Source: Pseudaquabacterium pictum
Lineage (GTDB): Bacteria > Pseudomonadota > Gammaproteobacteria > Burkholderiales > Burkholderiaceae_C
NCBI RefSeq assembly: GCF_005403045.1
Contig: NZ_BJCL01000006.1
Span: 248,001-312,000 of the forward strand
Length of the DNA stretch: 64,000 bases
Direction: 5' to 3'
Shown: positions 50,053-63,750 of the stretch, piece after piece
Position numbering within the stretch: position 1 is the stretch's first letter
Layout of the letters: every line of letters begins with the position of its first letter
Notes under the pieces: generated by a model
What the model was told of the DNA's origin: nothing
Database searches by the model: none
What the model saw: only the letters and a program-made list of their open reading frames with translations
Position numbers and translations under genes: made by a program

Positions 50053-50673
50053 TCAGATCAAGTTGAGCGCCGAGAACACCTGGGATTTGTTGCGTTGCTG
50101 TGCGGCGTAGCGCAAGCGCTGCGAGTGCACGACGGTCTTCAGATCGAACAGCGCCGTCTCGAATAAACCGTTGATGATAACAAAATCGAAATGGCGCGCC
50201 TGCGCCACCTCCAGCCGGGCGTTCTCCATGCGGCGGGCGATCACGTCGGCGCCATCTTCGCCGCGGCGCTTCAGCCGCTGCTCCAGCTCGGCCCAGCTGG
50301 GCGGCAGGATGAAGATCAGGATGGCGTGGCCGAAGATCTGCTTGATCTGCAGCGCGCCCTGCCAGTCGATCTCCAGCACCACGTCCTCGCCGCGGGCCAG
50401 GCGGTCTTCGATGGCACGGCGCGAGGTGCCGTACAGGTTGCCGTGCACCTCGGCCCATTCGAAGAAATCGCCCTGCGCCGCCATCTGGCGGAATTCATCG
50501 GTGCCGACGAACCAGTACTCGCGGCCGTGCTGTTCCTGGCCGCGCGGCGCGCGGGTGGTGTGCGAGACCGACACGGCCAGATGGGAGTCGAGCTCCAGCA
50601 GCGCCTTGACCAGGCTGGACTTGCCGGCGCCGCTGGGCGCCGCCACCACGAAGAGGTTGCCGGGGGTTTCCAT
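50053..50673 (-). CDS. gmk: Guanylate kinase
   Basis: A 206-residue kinase that phosphorylates GMP to GDP. The P-loop is [11 protein letters not shown] (residues 12-22), followed by the GMP-binding segment [13 protein letters not shown] and HGREYWFV, and the lid region [19 protein letters not shown]. Length matches the family. It is 48 bases after ureC and 59 bases before rpoZ on the same strand. Together with guaA at the start of the window it is a second guanine nucleotide gene. Confidence 0.97.
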
Positions 50674-50721: not shown

Positions 50722-52461
50722 TCAGAACAGGAAGTACTTCTGCGCCATCGGCAGCACCGTGGCCGGCTCGCAGGTCAGCAGCACGCCGTCGGCGCGCACC
50801 TGGTAGGTCTGGGCGTCGATCTGCATCTGCGGCAGGTAGGCGTTGTGCACCATGTCGCGCTTGGTGACGGTGCGGTTGCCCTTCACCGCCACCAGCCGCT
50901 TGGCCAGGCCGTAGCTCTCGGCCACGCCGCTGGCCAGGCTGGCCTGGCTGACGAAGCTGATCGACGTGGGGCCGACGGCCTTGCCGAAGCTGCCGAACAT
51001 CGGCCGGTAGTGCACCGGCTGCGGTGTCGGGATGCTGGCATTCGGGTCGCCCATGGCGGCGGCGGCGATGAAGCCACCCTTCAACACCACGCTGGGCTTG
51101 ACGCCGAAGAAGGCCGGCTTCCACAGCACCAGGTCGGCCCACTTGCCCACTTCCACGCTGCCCACCTCGTGGGCGATGCCGTTGGCCAGCGCCGGGTTGA
51201 TGGTGTATTTGGCGACGTAGCGCTTGACGCGGAAGTTGTCGTGGCGCTCGCTGGACTGGCCATCTGGGCCCGCCAGCGTGCCGCGCTGCTGCTTCATCTT
51301 GTGCGCCGTCTGCCAGGTGCGGATGATGACTTCGCCCACCCGGCCCATGGCCTGGCTGTCGCTGCTCATCATGCTGATCGCGCCCATGTCGTGCAGCACG
51401 TCCTCGGCGGCAATGGTCTCGCGGCGGATGCGGCTCTCGGCGAAGGCCAGGTCCTCGGCGATCGACGCATCGAGGTGGTGGCAGACCATCAGCATGTCCA
51501 GGTGCTCGTCCACCGTGTTGGCGGTGTAGGGCATGGTCGGATTGGTGCTGCTGGGCAGGAAGTTGGCCTCGCCCACCACCCGCAGGATGTCGGGCGCGTG
51601 GCCGCCGCCGGCACCTTCGGTGTGGAAGGCGCAGAGGCTGCGGCCCTTGGTGGCGGCGATGGTGTCCTCGACGAAGCCGCTCTCGTTGAGGGTGTCGCTG
51701 TGGATCGAGACCTGGATGTCGTGCGCTTCGGCCACGTTCAGGCACTGGTCGATGGCACTCGGCGTGGTGCCCCAGTCCTCGTGCAGCTTGAGGCCGATGG
51801 CGCCGGCCTCGGCCTGCTGGTTCAGGGCCTCGGGCCTGCTGGCGTTGCCCTTGCCCAGGAAGCCCAGGTTCATCGGGAAGGCCTCGGCCGCCTGCAGCAT
51901 CAGCCGCATGTGCTCGGGCCCGGGCGTGCTGGTGGTGGCCAGCGTGCCGGTGGCCGGGCCGGTGCCGCCGCCGAGCATGGTGGTCACGCCCGAGTACAGC
52001 GCCTCGTCGATCTGCTGCGGGCAGATGAAATGGATGTGGCTGTCGATGCCGCCGGCGGTGACGATCATCCCCTCGCCGGCCAGGATCTCGGTGCCCGGGC
52101 CGATGACGATGTCCACGCCCGGCTGCACATCGGGGTTGCCGGCCTTGCCGATGGCGGCGATGCGGTGGCGCTTGATGCCGATGTCGGCCTTGACGATGCC
52201 CCAGTGGTCGATGATCAGCGCGTTGGTGATCACCAGGTCGGCGGCCTCGTGCGCACCGGGGCCGTTGGGCGCCTGGCCCTGGCCCATGCCGTCGCGGATG
52301 GTCTTGCCGCCGCCGAACTTCACCTCTTCGCCGTAGCCGCCGGCGCGCAGGGTGAAGTCGTCCTCGACCTGCACCACCAGCGCGGTGTCGGCCAGGCGCA
52401 GCCGGTCGCCCACGGTGGGGCCGTACATCTCGGCGTAGGCACGCCTGCCGATCGTGGCCAT
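50722..52461 (-). CDS. ureC: Urease subunit alpha
   Basis: A 579-residue nickel-dependent amidohydrolase subunit that hydrolyses urea to ammonia and carbamate. [20 protein letters not shown] starts the protein. Metal-site motifs are present: [27 protein letters not shown] (with the carbamylated Lys), the [10 protein letters not shown] segment, [15 protein letters not shown] and VCHHLD. ATG 52461 overlaps the ureB stop by one base (TGATG); a GTG at 52464 is also possible. The order alpha then gmk is unusual because accessory genes normally follow ureC. Confidence 0.97.
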
Positions 52462-52766
52462 CACAAGGCTCCCTGGATCTGGCCGCGGAAGCCGAACACC
52501 TGCCGGGCGCCCGCGTAGTCGACCAGCTCGACCGTGCGTTGCTGGCCCGGCTCGAAGCGCACCGCCGTGCCGCTGGCGATGTTCAGCCGCATGCCGCGGG
52601 CGGCGGCGCGGTCGAAGCTGAGGGCGCCGTTGGTCTCGGCGAAGTGGTAGTGCGAGCCCACCTGGATCGGCCGGTCGCCGGTGTTCTGCACCACCAGGGT
52701 GTGGGTGCGGCGGCCAGGGTTCAGGATGTGGTCGCCGTCGTCGGTCAGCAGTTCGCCGGGGATCAT
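52461..52766 (-). CDS. ureB: Urease subunit beta
   Basis: A 101-residue beta subunit of urease. It has [20 protein letters not shown] and [40 protein letters not shown] and [20 protein letters not shown], all typical. The start at 52766 removes an unlikely 39-residue upstream extension. It is separated from ureA by the small gene 52777-52941 and joined to ureC by the TGATG overlap. Confidence 0.96.
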
Positions 52767-52776
52767 GCGCTGCGCC

Positions 52777-52941
52777 TCACTTGCGCCGGGCCAGCCACAG
52801 GCCGGCGACGGCCACCGCGGCCAGCAGCCAGGCGGCGTCGGTGGCATGCCAGTGCGAGGCGCCCGGCAGGCCGTGGCCCTCATGCGCCTGCGCCAGACCG
52901 GCGCCTGCCATGGCCAGCAGGGCCAAGATTTGCTTCTTCAT
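52777..52941 (-). CDS. Small membrane protein between ureA and ureB
   Basis: A 54-residue protein: a signal-like hydrophobic start ([19 protein letters not shown]), a short HEGHG segment and a second hydrophobic helix ([16 protein letters not shown]) with a basic end (RRK). Short His-containing membrane proteins of this kind occur inside urease clusters, but no function is established. It is the only gene between ureA and ureB and is short enough to be missed by annotation. Confidence 0.6.
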
Positions 52942-52969
52942 GGTGCGCTCCAGCAGCGTTTTGGCTGCG

Positions 52970-53272
52970 TTATGCAATGGGTTGGTGCACTGTCACCAGT
53001 TTGGTGCCATCCGGAAACGTGGCCTCGACCTGGATTTCCCGGACCATGTCGGCCACGCCGTCCATCACGTCGTCGCGGGTCAGCACCGTCTTGCCGTCGC
53101 TCATCAACGCGGCCACGGTCTTGCCGTCGCGGGCGCCTTCCATGATGGCGGCGGTGATCAGGGCCACCGCCTCGGGCACGTTGAGCTTCAGGCCCCGGGC
53201 CTTGCGCCGCTCGGCCAGCAGCGCGGCGGTGAAGATCAGCAGCTTGTCTTTTTCACGCGGGGTCAGATCCAT
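52970..53272 (-). CDS. ureA: Urease subunit gamma
   Basis: A 100-residue gamma subunit: [40 protein letters not shown] and [20 protein letters not shown] are the family hallmarks. It is the first gene of the urease structural unit in transcription order. No ureD lies upstream, where the divergent diguanylate cyclase gene starts 213 bases away. No NAC or nitrogen-responsive site was assigned. Confidence 0.97.
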
Positions 53273-53484
53273 GGTGTCGGCCTCAGCACATTCAGTGCCA
53301 TCGTAACCAGTGCGACGCAGGTCGCCATCGGGGTGTCACCGCGCACCGGCAGGCAAGCCTGTCAGCAAAACTGCACAAAATGCAGGTCCGGCCTCAGAAT
53401 CCCGGCGTTGCCGGGCGTGTGCGGTGACGCACACCGGGTCCACCCACAGGAGCAGACGCGCCGAGGTCAGGCGCCAGTGCCACC

Positions 53485-54846
53485 ATGCAGCACGAGCAGA
53501 ACGCGCCCGCTCCCCGCCCCTCGCTGCCCGAGGACACCCTGGGTGACAGCGCGGCCCTGATGCTGGACCTGGCCGCATCGATTCCGGGGGCGATGTTCCG
53601 GCTGTCGCGCTGGGCGGGCGGGCAGTGGCGCTTCACCTATGTCAGCCCGGGCATCGAGCCGCTGTTCGGGCTGACGCCGGCACAGGTCTGCGCCGACATC
53701 CGGGCCCTGGGCCGGGTGATCCTGCCGGAGGACCGCCCGCAGCACGACGCCACCATCCGCGCTGCACTGCTGGCCGGCCAGGCCTTCGAGCAGGAGTACC
53801 GCATCCGCACCGCCGATGGCGTGCTCAAGTGGGTGCATGCCCGCGCCAGGCCGCAGCCCGGCGGCGCCGGCGAGGTGGTGTGGACCGGGCTGCTCACCGA
53901 TGTCTCCGACCGCAAGCAGCTGGAGGCGGTGGTGCGCGACAGCGAGGAGCGCTACCGCACCCTGTTCGAGACGGTGGCCCAGGGCGTGGTCTACCAGGAC
54001 GCCGCCGGCCGCATCACCTCGGCCAACCCGGCGGCGCAGCGCATCCTGGGGCTGACGCTGGACCAGATGCAGGGCCGCCACAGCGTCGACCCGCGCTGGC
54101 AGGCCATCCATGAGGACGGCAGCCCGTTTCCCGGCACCGAGCATCCCGCCATGGTGGCGCTGCGCACCGGCCAGCCGGTGCACCAGGTGGTGATGGGCGT
54201 GCATGCGCCGAACCGCGGCTGCACCTGGTTGCTGGTCAATGCCACGCCGGTGCTGCGCGCCGGCCAGGCGCAGGAGGTGTACAGCAGCTTCGAGGACATC
54301 ACCGAGCGGGTGCTGCTCAGCCAGGAGCTCAAGCGCCAGGCCAGCACCGACGACCTCACCGGCGTGGCCAACCGCCGCAGCCTGATGCAGCGCCTGGCGC
54401 TGGAGTTCGAGCGGGTGCGCCAGCCCGGCGCCGGCCACCGCTGTGCGGTGTTGGCGGTCGACCTCGACCTGTTCAAGCTGATCAATGACCGCCACGGCCA
54501 TGCCGCTGGCGATGCGGTGCTGCAGCATGCGGCCACGCTGATGCGCCGCGTTACCCGCCAGCACGACCTGGTGGCCCGCAGCGGCGGCGAGGAATTCACC
54601 CTGGTGCTGCCCGACACCGGCCCGGACGAGGCCGCCGCCCTGGCCGAGCGGCTGCGCGCCAGCCTGCAGGCCCAGCCGCTGCAGCACCAGGGCCTGGCGC
54701 TGGTGGTGACGGTGAGCGTGGGCGTCAGCCAGATCCTGCCTGCCGATGCCAGCCTGGACGCGGTGCTGGCCCGCGCCGATGCCGCGCTGTACGCCGCCAA
54801 GGGCGCCGGCCGCAACCAGGTGTGCCTGGCACCAGCAGCGGGCTGA
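53485..54846 (+). CDS. PAS-PAS diguanylate cyclase
   Basis: A 453-residue cyclic-di-GMP synthase. Two PAS domains (about 25-145, with FTYVSPGIEPLFGLTPAQVC, and 155-275, with RYRTLFETVAQGVVYQDAAG) precede a GGDEF domain: LTGVANRRSLMQRL, VDLDLFKLINDRHGHAAGDA and the active site GGEEF. The inhibitory site RxxD (RQHD) lies five residues before GGEEF, so product inhibition is likely. No membrane segment is present. It is the first of three plus-strand genes with the transporter-kinase and its response regulator. Confidence 0.94.
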   Translation: MQHEQNAPAPRPSLPEDTLGDSAALMLDLAASIPGAMFRLSRWAGGQWRFTYVSPGIEPLFGLTPAQVCADIRALGRVILPEDRPQHDATIRAALLAGQAFEQEYRIRTADGVLKWVHARARPQPGGAGEVVWTGLLTDVSDRKQLEAVVRDSEERYRTLFETVAQGVVYQDAAGRITSANPAAQRILGLTLDQMQGRHSVDPRWQAIHEDGSPFPGTEHPAMVALRTGQPVHQVVMGVHAPNRGCTWLLVNATPVLRAGQAQEVYSSFEDITERVLLSQELKRQASTDDLTGVANRRSLMQRLALEFERVRQPGAGHRCAVLAVDLDLFKLINDRHGHAAGDAVLQHAATLMRRVTRQHDLVARSGGEEFTLVLPDTGPDEAAALAERLRASLQAQPLQHQGLALVVTVSVGVSQILPADASLDAVLARADAALYAAKGAGRNQVCLAPAAG

Positions 54847-54907: not shown

Positions 54908-57900
54908 GTGAACGACCCCCGCCCGCCCGCCGCCCTGACCGCACCGCCTCAGCAGGTGGTGACCTTCCGGCGTGACTACAACAGCTGGGTGGCGCGCGAG
55001 ACGATGGAGGACTACGCGCTGCGCTTCACGCCGCGCACGTTCCGCAAGTGGAGCACCTGGCGGGTGGCCAACACCGCCTTCGGTGCCGCCTCGTTCCTGA
55101 TCCTGGAGGCGGTGGGCGCCACGCTGCTGGTGCAGTACGGCTTCGTCAACGCCGCCTGGGCCATCCTGGCCACCGGGCTGATCATCTTCCTGGCCGGTCT
55201 GCCGATCAGCGTGTATGCCGCACGGCACGGCGTCGACATGGACCTGCTGACCCGCGGCGCCGGCTTCGGCTACCTGGGCAGCACCATCACCAGCCTGATC
55301 TACGCCAGCTTCACCTTCATCTTCTTCGCCCTCGAGGCGGCGGTGATGGCCTATGCGCTGGAGCTGGCCTTCGACATCCCGCCGGCCTGGGGCTACGTGA
55401 TCTGTTCCCTGGTGGTGATCCCGCTGGTCACCCACGGCGTCACCGTCATCAGCCGGCTGCAGGTGTGGACGCAGCCGCTGTGGCTGGCCATGCTGGTGCT
55501 GCCGCTGGCCTGGGTGCTGGTCAAGAGCCCGCCCGAGCTGGCCGGCCTGACCAGCTATGCCGGCGCCGACGGTTCCCATGCCGGCTTCAGCCTGATGGGC
55601 TTCGGCGCCGCGCTGACGGTGGGCATCGCGCTGATCACGCAGATGGGCGAGCAGGCCGACTACCTGCGCTTCATGCCCGAGAAGCGGCCCGGCCAGGCCG
55701 GCCGCTGGTGGTTCGGCACCCTGCTGGGCGGGCCCGGCTGGGTGCTGATGGGCGTGCTGAAGATGCTGGCCGGCGTGCTGCTGGCCTACCTGGTGCTGGC
55801 CCACATGGTGCCGCCCGAGCGCGCGGTCGATCCCAACCAGATGTACCTGGCGGCCTGGGAGTACGTGTTCCCGCACTACGGCTGGGCGGTGGCGGCCACC
55901 TGCCTGTTCGTGGTGGTCAGCCAGCTCAAGATCAACGTCACCAACGCCTATGCCGGCAGCCTGGCCTGGAGCAACTTCTTCTCGCGGCTGACCCACAGCC
56001 ATCCCGGCCGGGTGGTGTGGGTGGTGTTCAACACCCTGATCGCCCTGGTGCTGATGGAACTGAACGTGTTCCAGGCCCTGGGCCATGTGCTGGGGCTCTA
56101 CAGCAACATCGCCATCGCCTGGATCATGGCGGTGGTGGCCGATCTGGTGATCAACAAGCCGCTGGGGCTCAGCCCCAAGGGCATCGAGTTCCGCCGCGCC
56201 CACCTGTACGACGTGAACCCGGTGGGCGTGGGCGCGATGGGCATCGCCTCGGTGCTCAGCATCGCCGCCCACCTGGGCGCCTTCGGGCCGATGGCGCAGG
56301 CCTGGTCGGCCATGATCGCGCTGGTGGTGGCCATGGTGGCCTCGCCGCTGATCGCTTGGGCCACTGGCGGCCGCTACTACCTGGCCCGCCGCACCGCGGC
56401 GGCACAGCAGCTGGAAGCCGCCGAGGATGTGGCCCACGGCCGCTACCTGGGCCGCCATGCGTTGCGCCGCTGCAGCATCTGCGAGCGCGACTACGAGCCC
56501 GAGGACATGGCCGCCTGCCCGGCCTACGGCGGCTTGATCTGCAGCCTGTGCTGCACGCTGGATGCCCGCTGCGACGACCTGTGCAAGCCGCAGGCGCGGC
56601 TGGCCGAGCAGTGGTTGGGCCTGTTGCAGCGCCTGCTGCCGGCGCGCATGGCGCCGCACCTGGCGGGCGGCCTGTCGGCGTACCTGCTGCTGATGTGCGC
56701 GGTGGTGCCGGGCCTGGCCCTGCTGTTCGCCGGCCTCTACCTGCTGGGCCTGCGCTCGCTGGGCAGCCTGGATGCGATCAGCGCCGCCGCGGTGGCGCCG
56801 CTGCTTCGCACCGGCTTCGGCCAGGCGTTTGCCGTGCTGCTGCTGATCGCCGGCATGGTGGCCTGGTGGGCGGTGCTGGCCCAGCGTGGCCGGGCCCTGG
56901 CCCAGGCCGAGGCGCGCCGCCAGACCCAGGCCATGAACGAGCAGGCCGGGGCGCTGCGCGCGCAGGCCCTGGTGCTGGAGCAGCAGGCCGCCGCGCTGCG
57001 CGACGAGGTCGAGTCCCACCAGCGCACCGATCTGCAGCTGCAGCAGGCCAAGGCCCAGGCCGATGCCGCCAACCAGGCCAAGAGCCGCTACATCACCGCC
57101 ATCAGCCATGAGCTGCGCACGCCGCTCAACAGCATCCTGGGCTATGCCCAGCTGCTGGAGGACGACCCCGCCATTCCCGGCCACCGGCGCAGCGCGGTGC
57201 AGGTCATCCGCCGCGGTGGCGACCACCTGCTGAGCCTGATCGAGGGCACGCTGGACATCGCCCGCATCGAGAGCGGCCGCCTGGCGCTGGAGCTGGGCCC
57301 GATGCACTTTGCCGACGCCATGGACGAGCTGGTGCGGCTGATCGAACCGCAGGCCACTGAGCGCGGCCTGCGCTTCGAGCACCAGCGCACCGGCACCCTG
57401 CCCGAGCTGGTGCGCGCCGACGAGAAGCGGCTGCGCCAGATCCTGATCAACCTGCTGGGCAATGCGGTGAAGTTCACCCGCAACGGACAGGTCAGCTTCC
57501 GCGTCGACTACAGCCGCGAGATGGCGCGCTTCGAGGTGGAGGACACCGGCCCCGGCATGTCCGAGGCCGAGCTGGCGCAGGTCTTCGAGCCCTTTGTGCG
57601 CGGCACCGCCGCCGGCGGCAATGCCAGCACCGGCACCGGCCTGGGCCTGACGATTGCCCGCATGCTGACCGGCCTGATGGGCGGCGACCTGACGGTGCGC
57701 AGCACGCCGGGGCAGGGCAGCTGTTTCACCGTGCGGTTGTACCTGCCCGAGCTGCAGGCCCGCGCCAGCCAGCGTGAGCGGCCGGCCCTGCAGCGCCACA
57801 CCGGCTACGCCGGGCCGCGGCGCCGGCTGCTGGTGGTCGACAACGAGGAGACCGACCGCCGCCTGCTGGCCGACCGGCTGGCGCCGCTGGGCTTCAGCCT

Positions 57901-58501
57901 GCTGCAGGCTGAATCGGGCGAGGCGGCGCTGGCCCTGCTGGCCACCGAGCCGGTGGATGCGATCTTCCTCGATCTGGCCATGCCCGGCATCGACGGCTGG
58001 ACCACGCTGCGCCGCCTGCGCGACCAGGGTTTGAGCGACGCGCCGGCCGCCATCGTTTCGGCCAATGCCTTCGACAAGGGGCTGGAGAACGACCTCGGCA
58101 TCACGCCGGCCGACTTCCTGGTCAAGCCGGTGCGCATGGCCGAACTGCTGGGCTGGCTGCAGCGCCGCCTGGAACTGCAGTGGGTGGACGAGCCCGCCAC
58201 GCCGGCCTCCGATGCCGAGGCGGCCGGCGCGCCGGCCCTGGTGCCACCGCCGGCCGAGGCGCTGCGCGCGCTGGACGAACTGGTGCGCCTGGGCTACCTG
58301 CGCGGCATCCAGAAGAAGCTGGACGCGCTGGCCGCCGAGCATCCAGCCAGCACGGCCTACATCGACCGGCTGCGCAACCTGGCACGCGGCTTCCAGCTCG
58401 ACACCATGGCGCATCTGATCCAATCCGCGCTGGTCGATGCGTCCGCACCGGCGGCCGCACCGCGGCCCGGTGTCTCGCCGCCCCCGTCCGATGCCGTCTG
58501 A
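54908..58501 (+). CDS. NCS1-family transporter fused to hybrid sensor histidine kinase
   Basis: A 1197-residue membrane protein. Residues 15-490 are an NCS1 (purine/cytosine/hydantoin/allantoin) permease: RRDYNSWVARETMEDYALRF, FLILEAVGATLLVQYGF, GFSLMGFGAALTVGIALITQ, QMGEQADYLRFMPEKRPGQA. A cysteine cluster (RRCSICERDYEP, LICSLCCTLDARCDDLC; about 522-560) precedes two more membrane helices and a coiled coil. The kinase has phospho-acceptor His734 (SHELRTPLNS), N and G boxes (NLLGNAVKFT, DTGPGMSEAE, TGLGLTIARM) and a receiver with Asp1022 (FLDLAMPGIDG). It starts at GTG 54908. The fusion suggests transport-linked sensing; the ligand is not predicted. Confidence 0.9.
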   Translation: MNDPRPPAALTAPPQQVVTFRRDYNSWVARETMEDYALRFTPRTFRKWSTWRVANTAFGAASFLILEAVGATLLVQYGFVNAAWAILATGLIIFLAGLPISVYAARHGVDMDLLTRGAGFGYLGSTITSLIYASFTFIFFALEAAVMAYALELAFDIPPAWGYVICSLVVIPLVTHGVTVISRLQVWTQPLWLAMLVLPLAWVLVKSPPELAGLTSYAGADGSHAGFSLMGFGAALTVGIALITQMGEQADYLRFMPEKRPGQAGRWWFGTLLGGPGWVLMGVLKMLAGVLLAYLVLAHMVPPERAVDPNQMYLAAWEYVFPHYGWAVAATCLFVVVSQLKINVTNAYAGSLAWSNFFSRLTHSHPGRVVWVVFNTLIALVLMELNVFQALGHVLGLYSNIAIAWIMAVVADLVINKPLGLSPKGIEFRRAHLYDVNPVGVGAMGIASVLSIAAHLGAFGPMAQAWSAMIALVVAMVASPLIAWATGGRYYLARRTAAAQQLEAAEDVAHGRYLGRHALRRCSICERDYEPEDMAACPAYGGLICSLCCTLDARCDDLCKPQARLAEQWLGLLQRLLPARMAPHLAGGLSAYLLLMCAVVPGLALLFAGLYLLGLRSLGSLDAISAAAVAPLLRTGFGQAFAVLLLIAGMVAWWAVLAQRGRALAQAEARRQTQAMNEQAGALRAQALVLEQQAAALRDEVESHQRTDLQLQQAKAQADAANQAKSRYITAISHELRTPLNSILGYAQLLEDDPAIPGHRRSAVQVIRRGGDHLLSLIEGTLDIARIESGRLALELGPMHFADAMDELVRLIEPQATERGLRFEHQRTGTLPELVRADEKRLRQILINLLGNAVKFTRNGQVSFRVDYSREMARFEVEDTGPGMSEAELAQVFEPFVRGTAAGGNASTGTGLGLTIARMLTGLMGGDLTVRSTPGQGSCFTVRLYLPELQARASQRERPALQRHTGYAGPRRRLLVVDNEETDRRLLADRLAPLGFSLLQAESGEAALALLATEPVDAIFLDLAMPGIDGWTTLRRLRDQGLSDAPAAIVSANAFDKGLENDLGITPADFLVKPVRMAELLGWLQRRLELQWVDEPATPASDAEAAGAPALVPPPAEALRALDELVRLGYLRGIQKKLDALAAEHPASTAYIDRLRNLARGFQLDTMAHLIQSALVDASAPAAAPRPGVSPPPSDAV

Positions 58502-59507
58502 ACCCACGCCACCGTCGCCGCCCGCCCCGCTGGCCCATGCCGCGGGCGAGGTGGTGCTGATCGTCGACGACCTGCCCGACAACCTGAGCCTGCTGCACGA
58601 CGCGCTGGACGAGGCCGGCTACACCGTGCTGGTGGCCACCGACGGCCCCAGCGCCCTGCAGCGCGCCCGCCAGGCGCGCCCGGCCATCGTGCTGCTGGAT
58701 GCGTTGATGCCCGGCATGGACGGCTTCGAGGTGGCGCGCCGGCTGAAGGCCGACCCGGCCACCGCCGCCATCCCCATCGTCTTCATGACGGCGCTGACCG
58801 AGACCGAGCATGTGGTGGCCGCCTTCGGCGCCGGCGGGGTCGACTACGTCACCAAGCCGCTGCAGCCGCGCGAGGTGCTGGCCCGCATCGGCGTGCACAC
58901 CCAGGCCGCGCGGCTGCAGCGCCAGGCCCGCAATGCGTTGGATGCCTTCGGCCATGCCACCCTGGTGGTGCGGGCGGGGGATGGCCGCCTGTTGTGGCAG
59001 ACCGCCCTGGCCCGCAGCCTGCTGCGCGACTACTTCGGCAGCGAGGGCAGCGCCGCGCCGGTGCCATTGATCGACTGGCTGCGCAGCCAGGCCGCCGGCG
59101 TGGCGCGTGGCGAGCCGCCGCAGCCGCTGGTCAGCGCCCGCGGCGGGCGGCGGCTCACCCTGGCCCTGCATGCGATGACCGGCGAGCTGGCCGAACGCAG
59201 CCTGGGCGACGAGGACAGCGACCCCGACGAGGCCGAGTGGCTGATCGTCGCCAGCGAGAGCGACGATGCCGCGGTGCTCGAATCGCTGATGGGCCAGTTC
59301 AAGCTGACGGCGCGCGAGGCCGAGGTGCTGTACTGGGTGGCCAAGGGCAAGACCAACCGCGATGTCGGCGACATCCTGGGGGCCAGCCCGCGCACGGTGA
59401 CCAAGCACATGGAGCACATCCTGCCCAAGCTGGGCGTGGAGACGCGCACCGCCGCCGCCGCCCTGGTGCTGGCGCGGGTGCCGGGCTTCGGCGCATCCCG
59501 CGGCTGA
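58491..59507 (+). CDS. LuxR/NarL-type response regulator of the transporter-kinase
   Basis: A 338-residue response regulator. The receiver (residues 20-140) has VLIVDDLPDNLSLL, phospho-acceptor Asp in IVLLDALMPGMDG and the switch Lys in VTKPLQPREVL. A ~110-residue middle part without a known domain follows, then a LuxR helix-turn-helix (LTAREAEVLYWVAKGKTNRD, SPRTVTKHMEHILPKLGVET). ATG 58491 overlaps the kinase stop by 11 bases, so the pair is translationally coupled. The targets are probably the adjacent genes; none was identified by sequence. Confidence 0.92.
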   Translation: MPSEPTPPSPPAPLAHAAGEVVLIVDDLPDNLSLLHDALDEAGYTVLVATDGPSALQRARQARPAIVLLDALMPGMDGFEVARRLKADPATAAIPIVFMTALTETEHVVAAFGAGGVDYVTKPLQPREVLARIGVHTQAARLQRQARNALDAFGHATLVVRAGDGRLLWQTALARSLLRDYFGSEGSAAPVPLIDWLRSQAAGVARGEPPQPLVSARGGRRLTLALHAMTGELAERSLGDEDSDPDEAEWLIVASESDDAAVLESLMGQFKLTAREAEVLYWVAKGKTNRDVGDILGASPRTVTKHMEHILPKLGVETRTAAAALVLARVPGFGASRG

Positions 59508-59531: not shown

Positions 59532-60572
59532 TCAGCCCGGCGCCTTGGCGGGCGCGCCACGCTCGTACCAGCCGCGGCTGGCGTTGACCACGCGCACCAC
59601 CACCAGCATCAGCGGCACCTCGATCAGCACGCCCACCACCGTGGCCAGGGCCGCGCCGGATTCGAAGCCGAACAGGCTGATGGCCGCGGCCACCGCCAGC
59701 TCGAAGAAGTTGCTGGCGCCGATCAGCGCCGACGGGCAGGCCACGCAATGCGCCTCGCCCAGCCGGCGGTTCAGGCCATAGGCCAGCGCGGCGTTGAACA
59801 CCACCTGCAGCGTGATCGGCACCGCCAGCATCGCGATCACCAGCGGCTGCTGCAGGATGGCCCGGCCCTGGAAGGCGAACAGCAGCACCAGCGTGGCCAG
59901 CAGCGCGGCCATCGAGGCCGGCCCCAGCCAGGCCAGCACGGCGGCCAGCGCCTCGGGCCCGCGCCGCAGCAGGGCGCGCCGCCACAGCTGGGCCACCACC
60001 ACCGGCAGCACGATGTACAGCCCCACCGAGGTGAGCAGCGTGTCCCAGGGCACGGTGATGGCCGACAGGCCCAGCAGCAGGCCGACGATGGGCGCGAAGG
60101 CGAACACCATGATGGTGTCGTTCAGCGCCACCTGGCTCAGCGTGAACAGCGGGTGGCCGCCGGTGAGCCGGCTCCAGACGAACACCATCGCGGTGCAGGG
60201 CGCCGCCGCCAGCAGGATCAGCCCGGCGATGTAGCTGTCGGCCTGGTCGGCTGGCAGCCAGGGCGCGAACACATGGCGCACGAACAGCCAGCCCAGCAGC
60301 GCCATCGAGAACGGCTTGACCGCCCAGTTGACGAACAGCGTGACGCCGATGCCGCGCCAATGCTGGCGCACCTGGGCCAGCGCGCCGAAGTCCACCTTCA
60401 GCAGCATCGGGATCACCATCACCCAGATCAGCACGCCCACCGGCAGGTTGACGCGGGCGATCTCCAGCGCGCCGATCGCCTGGAACGGCGCCGGGAACCA
60501 CTGCCCCAGCGCGATGCCGGCGGCGATGCACAGCGCCACCCACAGCGTGAGCCAGCGCTCGAAGGTATTCAT
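59532..60572 (-). CDS. acr3: Arsenite efflux permease ACR3
   Basis: A 346-residue ten-helix exporter that extrudes As(OH)3 from the cytoplasm. Diagnostic ACR3 blocks are FVNWAVKPFSMALLGWLF, LILLAAAPCTAMVFVWSRL (with the essential Cys), NDTIMVFAFAPIVGLL and ASNFFELAVAAAISLFGFES. It is last in the arsenic operon and overlaps arsC in ATGA. The C-terminal tail GWYERGAPAKAPG ends near the end of the response regulator gene on the other strand, 24 bases apart. Confidence 0.95.
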   Translation of the reverse strand: MNTFERWLTLWVALCIAAGIALGQWFPAPFQAIGALEIARVNLPVGVLIWVMVIPMLLKVDFGALAQVRQHWRGIGVTLFVNWAVKPFSMALLGWLFVRHVFAPWLPADQADSYIAGLILLAAAPCTAMVFVWSRLTGGHPLFTLSQVALNDTIMVFAFAPIVGLLLGLSAITVPWDTLLTSVGLYIVLPVVVAQLWRRALLRRGPEALAAVLAWLGPASMAALLATLVLLFAFQGRAILQQPLVIAMLAVPITLQVVFNAALAYGLNRRLGEAHCVACPSALIGASNFFELAVAAAISLFGFESGAALATVVGVLIEVPLMLVVVRVVNASRGWYERGAPAKAPG

Positions 60573-61063
60573 TGCTTGCCGATGTCGCGCAGCCCCTGCT
60601 GCAGCGCCAGCCGGTCCAGCGACGCCAGCGGCAGGGCCAGCATCAGCTCCAGCCGGCGGCGCAGCACCAGCGCCGCATCCCAGAAGGCCGGCTGCTGCTG
60701 GGCGTCGGTGCCGGTGACGGCGGCGGGGTCGGGCACGCCCCAATGGGCAGTGACCGGCTGGCCCGGCCACACCGGGCACACCTCGCCGGCAGCCTGGTCG
60801 CAGACGGTGAAGACGAAGTCCAGCCGCGGCGCGCCGGGCTGGGCGAAGGATGCCCAGTCCTTGCTGTGCAGGCCGTCGGCGGGCAGGCGCAGCCGCTGCA
60901 GCGTGGCCAACGTCAGCGGGTGCACGCTGCCGCGCGGGTGGCTGCCGGCCGAATGCGCGGCAAAGCGGCCGCCGCCCAGGTGGTTGAGCAGCGCCTCGGC
61001 CAGGATCGAGCGGGCCGCGTTGTGGGTGCAGATGAACAGCACCTGGTAGATCTTGTCGGACAT
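60569..61063 (-). CDS. arsC: Arsenate reductase, low-molecular-weight phosphatase type
   Basis: A 164-residue arsenate reductase of the LMW-PTP fold. The P-loop is FICTHNAARSILAEALLNH with catalytic Cys near residue 12, and the second half has FVFTVCDQAAGEVCPVWPGQ with the redox cysteines, then WGVPDPAAVTG with the Asp-Pro motif. It reduces As(V) to As(III) for export by ACR3. It sits between arsR and acr3. Confidence 0.95.
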   Translation of the reverse strand: MSDKIYQVLFICTHNAARSILAEALLNHLGGGRFAAHSAGSHPRGSVHPLTLATLQRLRLPADGLHSKDWASFAQPGAPRLDFVFTVCDQAAGEVCPVWPGQPVTAHWGVPDPAAVTGTDAQQQPAFWDAALVLRRRLELMLALPLASLDRLALQQGLRDIGKQ

Positions 61064-61093
61064 CGTGGGCTCCAGAGTCGAGAGTGGGCGCAG

Positions 61094-61429
61094 TCAGCAG
61101 CAACCGCCGCTGCTGGCCGGGCCCAGCGCGCAGGTCGTGCTGGGGGCGCCTTCGCAGCAGTGCGCCGTCAGGTAGTCCAGCAGCGCGTTCATCTGCACGA
61201 TGGCGGGGCGGTAGATCAGGTGGCGGCCGTCGCGCTCCTGCGTGACCAGGCCGGCGTGTTCCAGCGCCTTCAGGTGGAACGACAGCGTGGAGCCGGGCAC
61301 GTCCAGCGTGGCGCACAGTGTGCCGGGCGTCATGCCGGCCGGTCCGGCGCCCACCAGGGCGCGGAACACCCGCAGGCGCATGCCCTGGGCCAGGGCGGCC
61401 AGGGCGGTGACGGCAGCTTGTTCGTCCAT
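61094..61429 (-). CDS. arsR: ArsR-family arsenic-responsive repressor
   Basis: A 111-residue winged helix repressor: LRVFRALVGAGPAGMTPGTL, then STLSFHLKALEHAGLVTQER. The classical metal box ELCVCDL is not present (only Cys39, LCATLDV). Instead, cysteines at 91, 92, 100, 110 and 111 crowd the C-terminus (HCCEGAPSTTCALG, GGCC), close in position to the C95, C96, C102 site of Acidithiobacillus ArsR. It probably represses the whole operon and binds As(III) through the C-terminal cysteines. Confidence 0.92.
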   Translation of the reverse strand: MDEQAAVTALAALAQGMRLRVFRALVGAGPAGMTPGTLCATLDVPGSTLSFHLKALEHAGLVTQERDGRHLIYRPAIVQMNALLDYLTAHCCEGAPSTTCALGPASSGGCC

Positions 61430-61442
61430 CGGGTGTCTCCGT

Positions 61443-62693
61443 TCAGGTGGCGGGGGCGGTGTCAGTGCTGGCGGTGCTGCGCACCAGCGGCAGCATCAGC
61501 GTGATGGCCCAGCAGGCCAGAAGCATCACCGCCGAACCCAGCAACGCGGCCAGCAGCCCGCCCCACTGGTACAGCAGGCCCGACAGCAGCGTGCCCAGGA
61601 AGCGGCCCAGCGCGTTGGCGGCGTAGTAGAAGCCCACGTCTTCGGCCGCCTTCTCCGATCCGGCATAGGCCAGCACCAGGTACGAGTGCACCGACGAGTT
61701 GACGGCAAACGCCACGCCGAACAGCCCCAGGCCGACCACCACCACCCAGTCCAGGTGCGGCCGCAGGGCCGGCAGATCCAGCGCCACCAGCGCCGCCAGC
61801 ACCAGCGGCACCGCCGCCAGCAGGGCCGACCAGGTGCGTGCGGCGGGCACCTCGGTGCTCAGCCCGTCGGTGCTGCGGCGCACGATGGCCGGCGCGGCAG
61901 CCTGCACCGCGCCGTAGCCGATGGTCCACAGCGCCAGGAAGGCGCCCACCATGGTGAAGGTCCAGCCCGCCGCATACAGGAACACCGGCACGCCGACGAC
62001 GAACCACACGTCGCGCGCGCCGAACAGCGCCACCCGTGCGGCGGCCAGGGCATTGATGCCCGGGTTCTTGGCGAACAGTTCCTTCGCCGACTTCGACGCC
62101 TTGGCCTTGCCCATCAGCCGCGGCACGCACAGCAGCACGCCCGCCAGCACCACGGCCAGCAGTGCGGCCATGGCCCACAGCGAATGCTGGAAGCCCAGCG
62201 TCTGCAGCAGCAGCCCGCCCAGGAAGAAGCCCACGCCCTTCATCGCGTTCTTGCTGCCGGTGAAGAAAGCCACCCACTTGAACAGCTGGCCCGATGCCGT
62301 GCCGGCGGTGAGCTTGATGGCCGATTTGCTGGCGGTCTTGGTCAGGTCCTTGGCCACGCCGCAGAGGCCCTGCGCGCCCACCACCCAGGCCACCGAGGCC
62401 GCCACCGTCCAGCCTGGCTGCAGGGCCGACAGCAGCAGGAAGCCGCTGATCTGCGTGGCCAGGCCCACCGCCAGCATGCGCGCGATGCCGTAGCGCGTGG
62501 CCAGCCACCCGCCCAGCAGGTTGGCCACGATGCCCATGGCCTCGTACAGCAGGAACAGGAAGGCCAGCGTGAACGGCGAGTAGCCCAGCCGGTAGAAGTG
62601 CAGCAGCACCAGCATGCGCAGCGCACCGTCGCTGAGGGTGAAGCCCCAGTAGGCGGCGGTGACGATCGCGTAGTTCCGGGTCCCGGCGTTCAT
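61443..62693 (-). CDS. arsJ: ArsJ organoarsenical efflux transporter
   Basis: A 416-residue MFS transporter of the ArsJ family: NYAIVTAAYWGFTLSDGALR, GIVANLLGGWLATRYGIARM, KDLTKTASKSAIKLTAGTAS, KWVAFFTGSKNAMKGVGFFL. ArsJ exports 1-arseno-3-phosphoglycerate, made by the GAPDH encoded directly upstream, giving resistance to arsenate. ATG 62693 is 14 bases after the GAPDH stop. Length is normal for the family. Confidence 0.95.
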   Translation of the reverse strand: MNAGTRNYAIVTAAYWGFTLSDGALRMLVLLHFYRLGYSPFTLAFLFLLYEAMGIVANLLGGWLATRYGIARMLAVGLATQISGFLLLSALQPGWTVAASVAWVVGAQGLCGVAKDLTKTASKSAIKLTAGTASGQLFKWVAFFTGSKNAMKGVGFFLGGLLLQTLGFQHSLWAMAALLAVVLAGVLLCVPRLMGKAKASKSAKELFAKNPGINALAAARVALFGARDVWFVVGVPVFLYAAGWTFTMVGAFLALWTIGYGAVQAAAPAIVRRSTDGLSTEVPAARTWSALLAAVPLVLAALVALDLPALRPHLDWVVVVGLGLFGVAFAVNSSVHSYLVLAYAGSEKAAEDVGFYYAANALGRFLGTLLSGLLYQWGGLLAALLGSAVMLLACWAITLMLPLVRSTASTDTAPAT

Positions 62694-62706
62694 CGCGTGC
62701 AGCGGG

Positions 62707-63750
62707 TCAGAGACCCTGCGCCTCCAGGTGGCATGCCAGGTCGACCATGCGGCAGGCATAGCCCATCTCGTTGTCGTACCAGGCGTAGACCTTCAGCAGC
62801 GTGCCGTCGGTCACCAGGGTGGACAGGCCGTCGACCACCGCGCTGCGGGTGTCGCGGGCGTAGTCGGCGCTGACCAGCGGCCGCGCCTCGTAGCCCAGGA
62901 TGCCGGCCAGCGGCCCGGCCGCGGCGGCCTGGAACAATGCGTTCACCTCGTCGGCGCTGGTGGCGCGTTGCAGCTCGAACACGCAATCGGTCAGCGAGGC
63001 ATTGAGCACCGGCGCCCGCACCGCATGGCCGTCGAGCTTGCCCTTGAGCTCGGGGTAGATCAGCGCGATGGCGGTGGCGCTGCCGGTGGTGGTGGGCGCC
63101 AGGCTGGTCATCGCGCTGCGGGCGCGGCGCAGATCCTTGTGCGGCGCATCCACCACCCGGTTGGTGTTGGTCGGGTCATGGATGGTGGTGATCTGGCCGT
63201 GGCGGATGCCGATGGCCTCGTGCACCACCTTGACCACCGGCGCCAGGCAGTTGGTGGTGCAGCTGGCCGCGGTGACGATGTGGTGCTGCGCCGGCTGGTA
63301 CAGGTGGTGGTTCACGCCCACCACGATGTTCAGCACGCCGCCCACCTTCACCGGCGCGGCCACGATCACCCGCTTGGCGCCACGGTCCAGGTGGCCCTGC
63401 AGCGTCTCGGGGGTCAGGAACTTGCCGGTGCACTCCAGCACCAGGTCCACGCCCAGCTCGCCCCAGGGGATGGCGGCGGCCGTGGCGTGGCTGCTGAAGC
63501 CGAGCCGGCGGTCGTCGATGCGGATGGCGTCTTCACCGTCGGCGGTGATGTTCGCCCGCCAGCGGCCCTGCACGCTGTCGAACTGCAGCAGATGGGCCGT
63601 GGCGGCGGCGCCGCCCTGCAGCTCGTTGCAGTGCACCACCTCCAGCCGGTGGCCGGCGCGCGGGTCGTCCTGCGGGCGCTCGGCGGCGCCCAGGGCCGCG
63701 CGCAGCGCCAGCCGCCCGATGCGGCCCATGCCATTGATGCCGACTCTCAT
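62707..63750 (-). CDS. ArsJ-associated glyceraldehyde-3-phosphate dehydrogenase
   Basis: A 347-residue GAPDH with the NAD-binding start [20 protein letters not shown], the catalytic Cys in [16 protein letters not shown] and [20 protein letters not shown] in the catalytic domain. In ars operons with arsJ this enzyme forms 1-arseno-3-phosphoglycerate from arsenate and glyceraldehyde 3-phosphate, which ArsJ exports. It is the first gene of the operon. The start follows an inverted repeat at 63775-63790 that probably binds ArsR. Confidence 0.94.

Follow-up and report, generated by a model that had tools for sequence, protein, structure and literature searches.

A hybrid histidine kinase with a remote NCS1-type permease domain in Pseudaquabacterium pictum, a probable receptor for urea and short-chain amides

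Transporter-fold sensor kinases

Histidine kinases with SLC5, Amt and S-component-like membrane inputs are known, and the NCS1 fold can now be added to these transporter folds. In a 64,000-nucleotide (nt) stretch of Pseudaquabacterium pictum (contig NZ_BJCL01000006.1, positions 248,001 to 312,000; hereafter the window) one open frame encodes a permease domain of the NCS1 type, an eight-cysteine segment and a hybrid histidine kinase, and overlaps the gene for a LuxR-type regulator. We consider it quite probable that the pair belongs to a widespread proteobacterial two-component system composed of an NCS1-fold receptor for urea or short-chain amides, a kinase and a LuxR-type regulator, with urt and amidase genes as its targets. 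All that is described below on the architecture of the protein, the relationship of its fold, its gene context, the palindrome and the sigma-54-like sites was obtained by computation.

As far as the available descriptions go, the SLC5/STAC kinases CbrA, CrbS and RpuS share with the window protein a transporter-fold domain on a histidine kinase (in some cases with a receiver), a nutrient-linked regulon and an adjacent partner regulator gene. They differ in having an SLC5 domain, a STAC linker and a PAS domain, where the window protein has an NCS1 domain and the cysteine segment, and their regulons concern histidine, acetate or pyruvate. Ks-Amt5 of Kuenenia also carries a transporter fold on a histidine kinase as receptor for a nitrogen compound, but the accessible parts of its descriptions give an Amt/Rh fold and ammonium as ligand (PMC5764959, PMC8534201). 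The 5TMR-LYT sensor kinases likewise employ a transporter-related membrane fold as kinase input, though in the available text this is the ECF S-component fold and not a LeuT-type carrier fold (PMC11109136). GrtK of Burkholderia glumae was considered as a relative and rejected, by description only, since it has a Fis-type regulator and no Amt module. The likeness to CbrA had been pointed out in an earlier sequence-only reading of the window, and it is apt, a transporter-fold domain on a histidine kinase being found in the SLC5/STAC kinases too.

For bacteria, urea and short-chain amides are an important supply of nitrogen. The genes for their uptake and hydrolysis are substrate-induced in at least one case, according to the accessible portion of PMC10781810, and for the fmdCABDEF regulon of Methylophilus methylotrophus the available account mentions no kinase and, as regulator, only a putative positive one. 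A membrane sensor for these compounds did not turn up in the open-access full-text literature searched, nor is a characterised NCS1-kinase fusion described there, as the sequence-only reading had supposed. One listed gene pair is probably a member of the family, judging from the listing and not from sequence: VIMSS583663/583664 of Dechloromonas aromatica, a histidine kinase of 1131 amino acids (aa) and a CheY-like receiver of 308 aa which lie by urtA in a nif/urt/ure cluster (PMC2907700, in the part available). Since the family has a fixed partner regulator as well as a probable operator sequence and regulon, the question of how urea and amides are sensed becomes directly testable, and stand-alone relatives may reveal how a carrier becomes a receptor.

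Architecture of the fusion protein

Frame, Pfam and alignment agree on the claim that permease, cysteine cluster, kinase and receiver form one protein of 1197 residues (Table 1). Pfam places HisKA at residues 724–790 (62.2 bits), HATPase_c at 838–946 (98.5 bits) and Response_reg at 975–1081 (60.4 bits). Conservation was followed in a 193-row alignment from which L191 and incomplete matches were left out, and of which 189 rows are full-length. Among the latter H734 is kept in 98.9%, N848 of the N-box in 99.5%, D1022 of the receiver in 98.9%, and the glycines of the G-boxes in 93.7–100%, so that the H, N and G boxes are indeed intact. Judged by these key residues the catalytic parts of a hybrid histidine kinase (HisKA, HATPase_c and receiver) are complete. 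Since Pfam gave no Hpt domain in the window kinase, one option is that H734 passes the phosphoryl group directly to the regulator and the receiver acts as a modulator.

Each of the eight cysteines (C522, C525, C537, C545, C548, C549, C555 and C559) occurs in all of the full-length rows. No Pfam family scored above cut-off in residues 525–724, and whether Pfam includes a STAC model was not checked. Near-invariant columns (at least 98.5%) number 93 of 491 in the permease, 15 of 51 in the cysteine segment, 9 of 63 in the coil, 5 of 67 in HisKA, 19 of 109 in HATPase_c and 4 of 107 in the receiver; the two helices preceding the kinase are poorly conserved (mean top-residue frequency 0.53).

Relatives were collected as three locus sets: 80 loci, 100 loci (20 picked first, stand-alone forms included, plus 80 further matches, some genomes contributing two) and 10 plasmid loci chosen for annotation and variety out of 40 listed, making 190 related loci in all. 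In 79 of the 80 loci the protein is present from about residue 1–15 onward with 62–85% identity (L004 ends at a contig edge), and the architecture is therefore not due to chance.

The permease domain is a remote NCS1 branch

Residues 1–524 of the window protein matched no Pfam family even at E 10, the window genome contains no PF02133 match, and direct identification of the permease domain with Pfam, phmmer and hmmsearch gave nothing meaningful. Profile comparison with hhalign was more informative. A first family profile (the window protein and 50 of the 80 loci, thus 51 members) aligned with 11 PF02133 proteins at 96.5% over 376 columns, and the 193-row profile with NCS1 to which Mhp1 had been added at 98.3% over 383 columns. 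Two stand-alone relatives, L190 (47% identical) and L191 (29%), pass PF02133 with 31.5 and 35.9 bits at a cut-off of 23.5.

AlphaFold2 returned for the domain alone a predicted local distance difference test score (pLDDT) of 76.2 and a predicted template modelling score (pTM) of 0.79, and for residues 15–670, modelled from 91 sequences (the window and 90 of 99 non-redundant rows), 88.6 and 0.90. For both models Mhp1 and CodB entries occupy Foldseek ranks 1–5. Other LeuT-type carriers follow closely (sialic acid symporter 7.3e-7 versus 1.1e-7, less than ten times the value at rank 5), and template modelling scores are 0.48–0.50 by query length and 0.66–0.76 by target length; the structural ranking by itself is thus modest. 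Profile alignment, model with Foldseek, and the PF02133 matches of the stand-alone relatives together lead us to regard the domain as a remote branch of NCS1. The sequence-only reading had therefore named the family correctly although Pfam misses the domain. Its suggestion that such fusions be sought by combining PF02133 with HisKA would not find this one, the domain being too remote for the PF02133 model.

Two other assignments were rejected in the hhalign comparison: SLC5/sodium:solute symporter, for which the SSF profile reached only 10.8% as against 98.3% for NCS1, and amino-acid permease, for which AA_permease_2 reached 0.8%.

With Mhp1 and CodB the domain shares the fold and a colinear profile alignment, at 16–18% identity in structural alignments. 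We take W117, Q121, W220 and N318 of Mhp1 to be its substrate residues and S312/T313 its Na+ ligands. By hhalign the former correspond to F139, E143, I243 and N346 of the window protein, with F in 177, E in 192, I in 131 (I, V or M replacing W220) and N in all of the 193 rows. The substrate site of Mhp1 is thus retained in part: the equivalent of N318 is kept, W117 has become F, Q121 E, and W220 is lost. The family has invariant residues of its own, namely Q245, E248, Q249, D251, R254 and N343, each in 193/193 rows. The Na+ ligands align with K341 and I342 (K 193/193, I 188/193); this helix contains a one-residue gap, so that the register is uncertain by one position, and in the two placements considered the lysine falls on a Na+ ligand. 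This Lys-Ile pair in place of Ser/Thr makes Na+ coupling as in Mhp1 unlikely, and a lysine at the former Na+ position may point to a transporter turned receptor.

Distribution

The domain was found in 35 of 200 genomes of an order sample, 17 of 369 of a class sample and 54 of 398 of a phylum sample; the three overlap, each includes the window genome, and a few of the phylum matches are weak or fragmentary. All 36 matches of the order sample lie in frames of at least 1127 aa. At least 584 relatives were found among the matches listed, a number which may include generic kinases and is not a family size. Nor is that of the 520 plasmid records matched, most of which cover less than 80% of the query; 145 cover at least 80%. 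The annotated loci span Burkholderia, Paraburkholderia, Mitsuaria, Methylobacterium, Chelatococcus, Roseomonas, Azospirillum, Shinella and Methylovirgula.

The window genome itself has two copies, one beside ureABC and one (L188, contig C4) beside urtABCDE-fmdA-fmdB. L197, a urt-fmdA locus, has two kinase copies on the same strand, separated by about 9.5 kb. Departures from the full-length form also occur. L206 and L207 have the kinase and no receiver. The 617-aa frame L189:9593–11443 has the permease and the full eight-cysteine parts, no kinase, and adjoins a full-length fusion. A stand-alone NCS1-like protein with a reduced cysteine motif (L190:8092–9777, 562-aa frame) follows directly after ureABCEFG and is a candidate urea carrier, and the stand-alone L191 adjoins a carbon-nitrogen hydrolase gene. 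One member, L219:5462–8922, is directly beside nifH-type, nitrogenase component 1 and draT genes.

Gene context

The link to nitrogen compounds proposed in the sequence-only reading is borne out. As markers we counted urt, ure or fmdA genes located between -9.5 and +11.5 kb relative to the permease domain. They were found near 69 of the 80 loci, 84 of the 100 and 10 of the 10 plasmid loci; among loci with at least 3 kb upstream the figures are 62/70, 82/94 and 10/10. For comparison, a 20-kb region was chosen arbitrarily in each of 20 of the genomes; urt, ure, fmd or amidase markers were absent from all of them (0/20), and one generic kinase-regulator pair matched.

A tree of 141 rows (139 ingroup leaves, L015 and L028 with two copies each being represented once) was rooted on one distant stand-alone protein, and several of its deep nodes are weakly supported. 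The window falls in a clade of 61 leaves (support 1.0), of which 44 are associated with urease, 7 with urt or fmd and 10 with none; divergent urt genes occur in 55 of the other 78 leaves. Of 23 UrtA matches in the window genome two exceed the curated cut-off: one lies by the C4 copy, the other on the window contig about 14.5 kb past the regulator. Its one UreD sits on another contig (C2).

As to the ligands that had been proposed, this context favours urea, together with short-chain amides, over nucleobases, hydantoin and allantoin, for which the sole hint is a hydantoinase/oxoprolinase pair past the regulator in the Shinella plasmid locus (one of the 10 annotated loci).

The partner regulator and a palindrome upstream of urtA

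The regulator frame does overlap the kinase frame by 11 nt (58491–58501), as had been claimed. Such a partner is the rule: downstream of 178 of 188 kinase frames there is a regulator frame, and the regulator adjoins the kinase in 77/80, 90/100 and 10/10 plasmid loci. With start codons chosen by rule, overlap of the two frames was seen in 142 of 169 pairs, 19 of which share exactly 11 nt. Pfam gives Response_reg at residues 22–133 and GerE at 272–324, and the phosphoacceptor D70 is present in 179/179 rows. In the urt group the recognition helix typically reads SPRTV[NDH]KHLE, in the urease group SP[AM]TVKKHLER or a close variant of it; that of the window regulator is SPRTVTKHMEHIL.

After reduction for redundancy from 122 to 103, the intergenic regions examined for motifs comprised 53 on the urt side and 50 on the urease side. 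A dyad TACG-N8-CGTA is present in 43 of the 53 divergent urtA-kinase regions, while in three shuffled sets any dyad reached at most 14. A matrix built from those 43 scores at least 12 bits in 48 of the 53 regions (shuffled 1/159), the 43 being its training set. Outside that set, upstream of urtA in other arrangements, the perfect dyad occurs in 31 of 37 regions and the dyad with at most one mismatch in 32; shuffled versions gave 39/370 at the latter level. These regions include that of the window genome's own urtA on contig C6, whose palindrome is at C6:321803–321818, beyond the window and about 14 kb past the regulator. Also outside the training set, a scan of the window genome placed a site on contig C4 that scores 24.2 bits with the matrix and is located 63 nt upstream of a gene for an aliphatic amidase (NF009802 at 713.9 bits, cut-off 427).

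Sigma-54-like sites

Sites resembling sigma-54 promoters point toward ureA in 47 of the 50 urease-side regions (shuffled 1/150), and toward the kinase gene in 36 of these 50 (shuffled 6/150) and in 23 of the 53 urt-side regions (shuffled 4/159). In the window the site TGGCACTGAATGTGCT is one of five with at most one mismatch in the 64 kb and the sole one between 50 and 60 kb. It is unusually near the ureA start and would leave almost no leader, and its function is uncertain. In B. cenocepacia the urease and urt genes are under NtrC/sigma-54 control, as stated in the accessible part of PMC5491218.

Proposed function and its alternatives

From the above we infer the ligand, the direction of regulation, the phosphotransfer and the binding of the palindrome by the regulator. 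Urea or a short-chain amide would bind the NCS1-fold membrane domain and alter it, and the change in this transporter-like part would pass via the eight-cysteine segment and the two further helices to the kinase. The phosphoryl group would then reach the overlapping LuxR-type regulator, and this presumably binds TACG-N8-CGTA palindromes and activates urtABCDE, together with formamidase or amidase genes according to the lineage. A second gate could be nitrogen limitation, acting via promoters of the sigma-54 type at ureA and, in many cases, at the kinase gene. Given the context, the ligand in the clade of the window is most likely urea, and in the urt-formamidase group it may be formamide, acetamide or urea. 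As to origin, one might tentatively imagine, though we lean the other way, that dedicated non-transporting receptors arose from stand-alone NCS1-like carriers lying by urease or amidase genes, by gaining the cysteine segment and kinase, with the lysine replacing ion coupling.

A number of observations weigh against the proposed two-component system. The loci are related by descent and their counts are not independent; 11 of the 80 and 16 of the 100 loci are without a marker, some of these being contig ends and two (L045, L197) having markers just outside the limits. Nine of the 37 urtA regions outside the training set share one identical palindrome. A scan of the window genome gave 6 palindrome sites at no more than two mismatches and a backward control pattern 21, so that the number of sites there is meaningless and only their position is informative. 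The palindrome is absent from the upstream regions of the window's own ureA and kinase genes (best -11.5 and -21.8 bits), and on the urease side generally it is weak, with 6 of 50 regions at 12 bits or more (shuffled 0/150); the commonest dyads there are largely ureA coding sequence. Arginine at position 3 of the recognition helix is paired with a palindrome of at least 12 bits in 48 of 52 urt-side regions, and with one of at least 9 bits in 0 of the 8 urease-side regions which have the urt-type Arg regulator, a pattern consistent with an operator at urtA and not at ureA. Sigma-54-like sites toward urtA are at background (4/53 urt-side regions, shuffled 5/159), and a LuxR-type regulator alone does not activate sigma-54 promoters. 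Binding, transport or expression data for any member of the family did not turn up. Finally, the SLC5 domain of CbrA is reported, in the available text of PMC9100948, not to be essential for signal perception, and the ligand here could accordingly act elsewhere, for example on the cysteine segment, in which near-invariant columns make up a still larger share than in the permease domain.

A clade formed by L199, L200, L248 and L250 also lacks urea and amide markers. Genes for the RuBisCO large chain, an RNA helicase or NadA lie near three of the four, and another ligand is possibly used in this clade.

The alternative that fares best is a true transceptor, whose NCS1 domain would take up urea or amides as well and derive its signal from the transport cycle; it differs from the receptor proposed above only in transport. 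We regard it as possible, though somewhat less likely than not. The complete NCS1 fold and the position of the stand-alone L190 beside urease genes would suit it, as would the precedent of CbrA, whose SLC5 domain takes up histidine according to the accessible part of PMC13022988. The invariant lysine and the adjacent isoleucine speak against it in so far as Na+ coupling is unlikely, and a dedicated UrtABCDE importer often adjoins the kinase. Proton coupling or facilitation by the NCS1 domain is possible, however, and the same lysine is found in four shorter relatives (L189, L190, L206 and L207), so that it may not signify that transport has been lost.

Urease is a nickel enzyme, and nickel is therefore one candidate signal if, as a second alternative has it, the eight-cysteine segment senses a metal, redox state or nitric oxide and the permease domain merely modulates or anchors the kinase. 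The conservation of this segment and the reported dispensability of the CbrA transporter domain for sensing (PMC9100948, available text) both point that way. Many members, however, lie near urt-formamidase-amidase genes with no urease in the stretch seen, L190 has a reduced cysteine segment and is nonetheless beside urease, and the permease domain is strongly conserved too; we think cysteine sensing improbable. That the sensor answers to ammonium, the product, or to overall nitrogen status, instead of to urea and amides, is more improbable still: it could explain the sigma-54-like sites at ureA and kinase and the L219 member beside nifH-type and draT genes, but the neighbours are mostly urea- and amide-specific and sigma-54/NtrC already provides nitrogen status in B. 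cenocepacia (PMC5491218, accessible part).

Features and other genes of the window

Table 1. Positions of the fusion gene, its parts and its neighbours, counted from the first nucleotide of the window.
Feature	Position	Strand	Basis or remark
NCS1-fold hybrid histidine kinase, 1197 aa	54908..58501	+	Open frame; GTG start inferred
NCS1-like permease domain, residues 15-505	54950..56422	+	hhalign, AlphaFold2, Foldseek
Codon of invariant K341	55928..55930	+	Aligned with Mhp1 S312 (T313 if the one-residue gap sits earlier)
Eight-cysteine segment, residues 522-559, C-x2-C-x11-CP-x6-C-x2-CC-x5-C-x3-C	56471..56584	+	All eight Cys in 189/189 rows
Two further long predicted helices, about residues 580-660, before kinase	56645..56887	+	AlphaFold2
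HisKA, phosphoacceptor H734	57077..57277	+	Pfam and conservation
HATPase_c	57419..57745	+	Pfam and conservation
Receiver domain, D1022	57830..58150	+	Pfam and conservation
LuxR/NarL-type response regulator, 338 aa	58491..59507	+	ATG start; Pfam
ureC (urease alpha)	50722..52464	-	PF00449 and PF01979
ureB (urease beta; start inferred)	52461..52766	-	PF00699, 148.1 bits in 52461-52829
ureA (urease gamma)	52970..53272	-	PF00547, 161.2 bits
Sigma-54-like site TGGCACTGAATGTGCT, 1 mismatch	53285..53300	-	12 nt from ureA start codon
PAS-PAS-GGDEF protein between ureA and kinase	53485..54846	+	Pfam; 61-nt gap to kinase

The ureABC genes reported beside the kinase and GGDEF genes are present on the minus strand (50722–53272). 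Past ureC, on the same strand, the translation of 50053–50673 reads as a guanylate kinase and not as ureE.

The sequence-only reading had also connected the system, through the diguanylate cyclase, with a switch in lifestyle. As a general link this is not supported. With a neighbour defined by at least 40% identity over 250 residues, the diguanylate cyclase adjoins the kinase in the window and, among the 190 loci searched, in L001, L002 and L005 only; it was rejected as a conserved part of the system and is lineage-specific.

On the other side of the regulator, 59532–63750 of the minus strand encodes an SBF-family carrier, an arsenate reductase resembling low-molecular-weight phosphatases, an ArsR-type regulator, an MFS protein and GAPDH. 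This is likely an arsenic cluster, in which the SBF-family carrier is probably an Acr3-type arsenite efflux protein and the MFS protein and GAPDH presumably represent an ArsJ-type pair.

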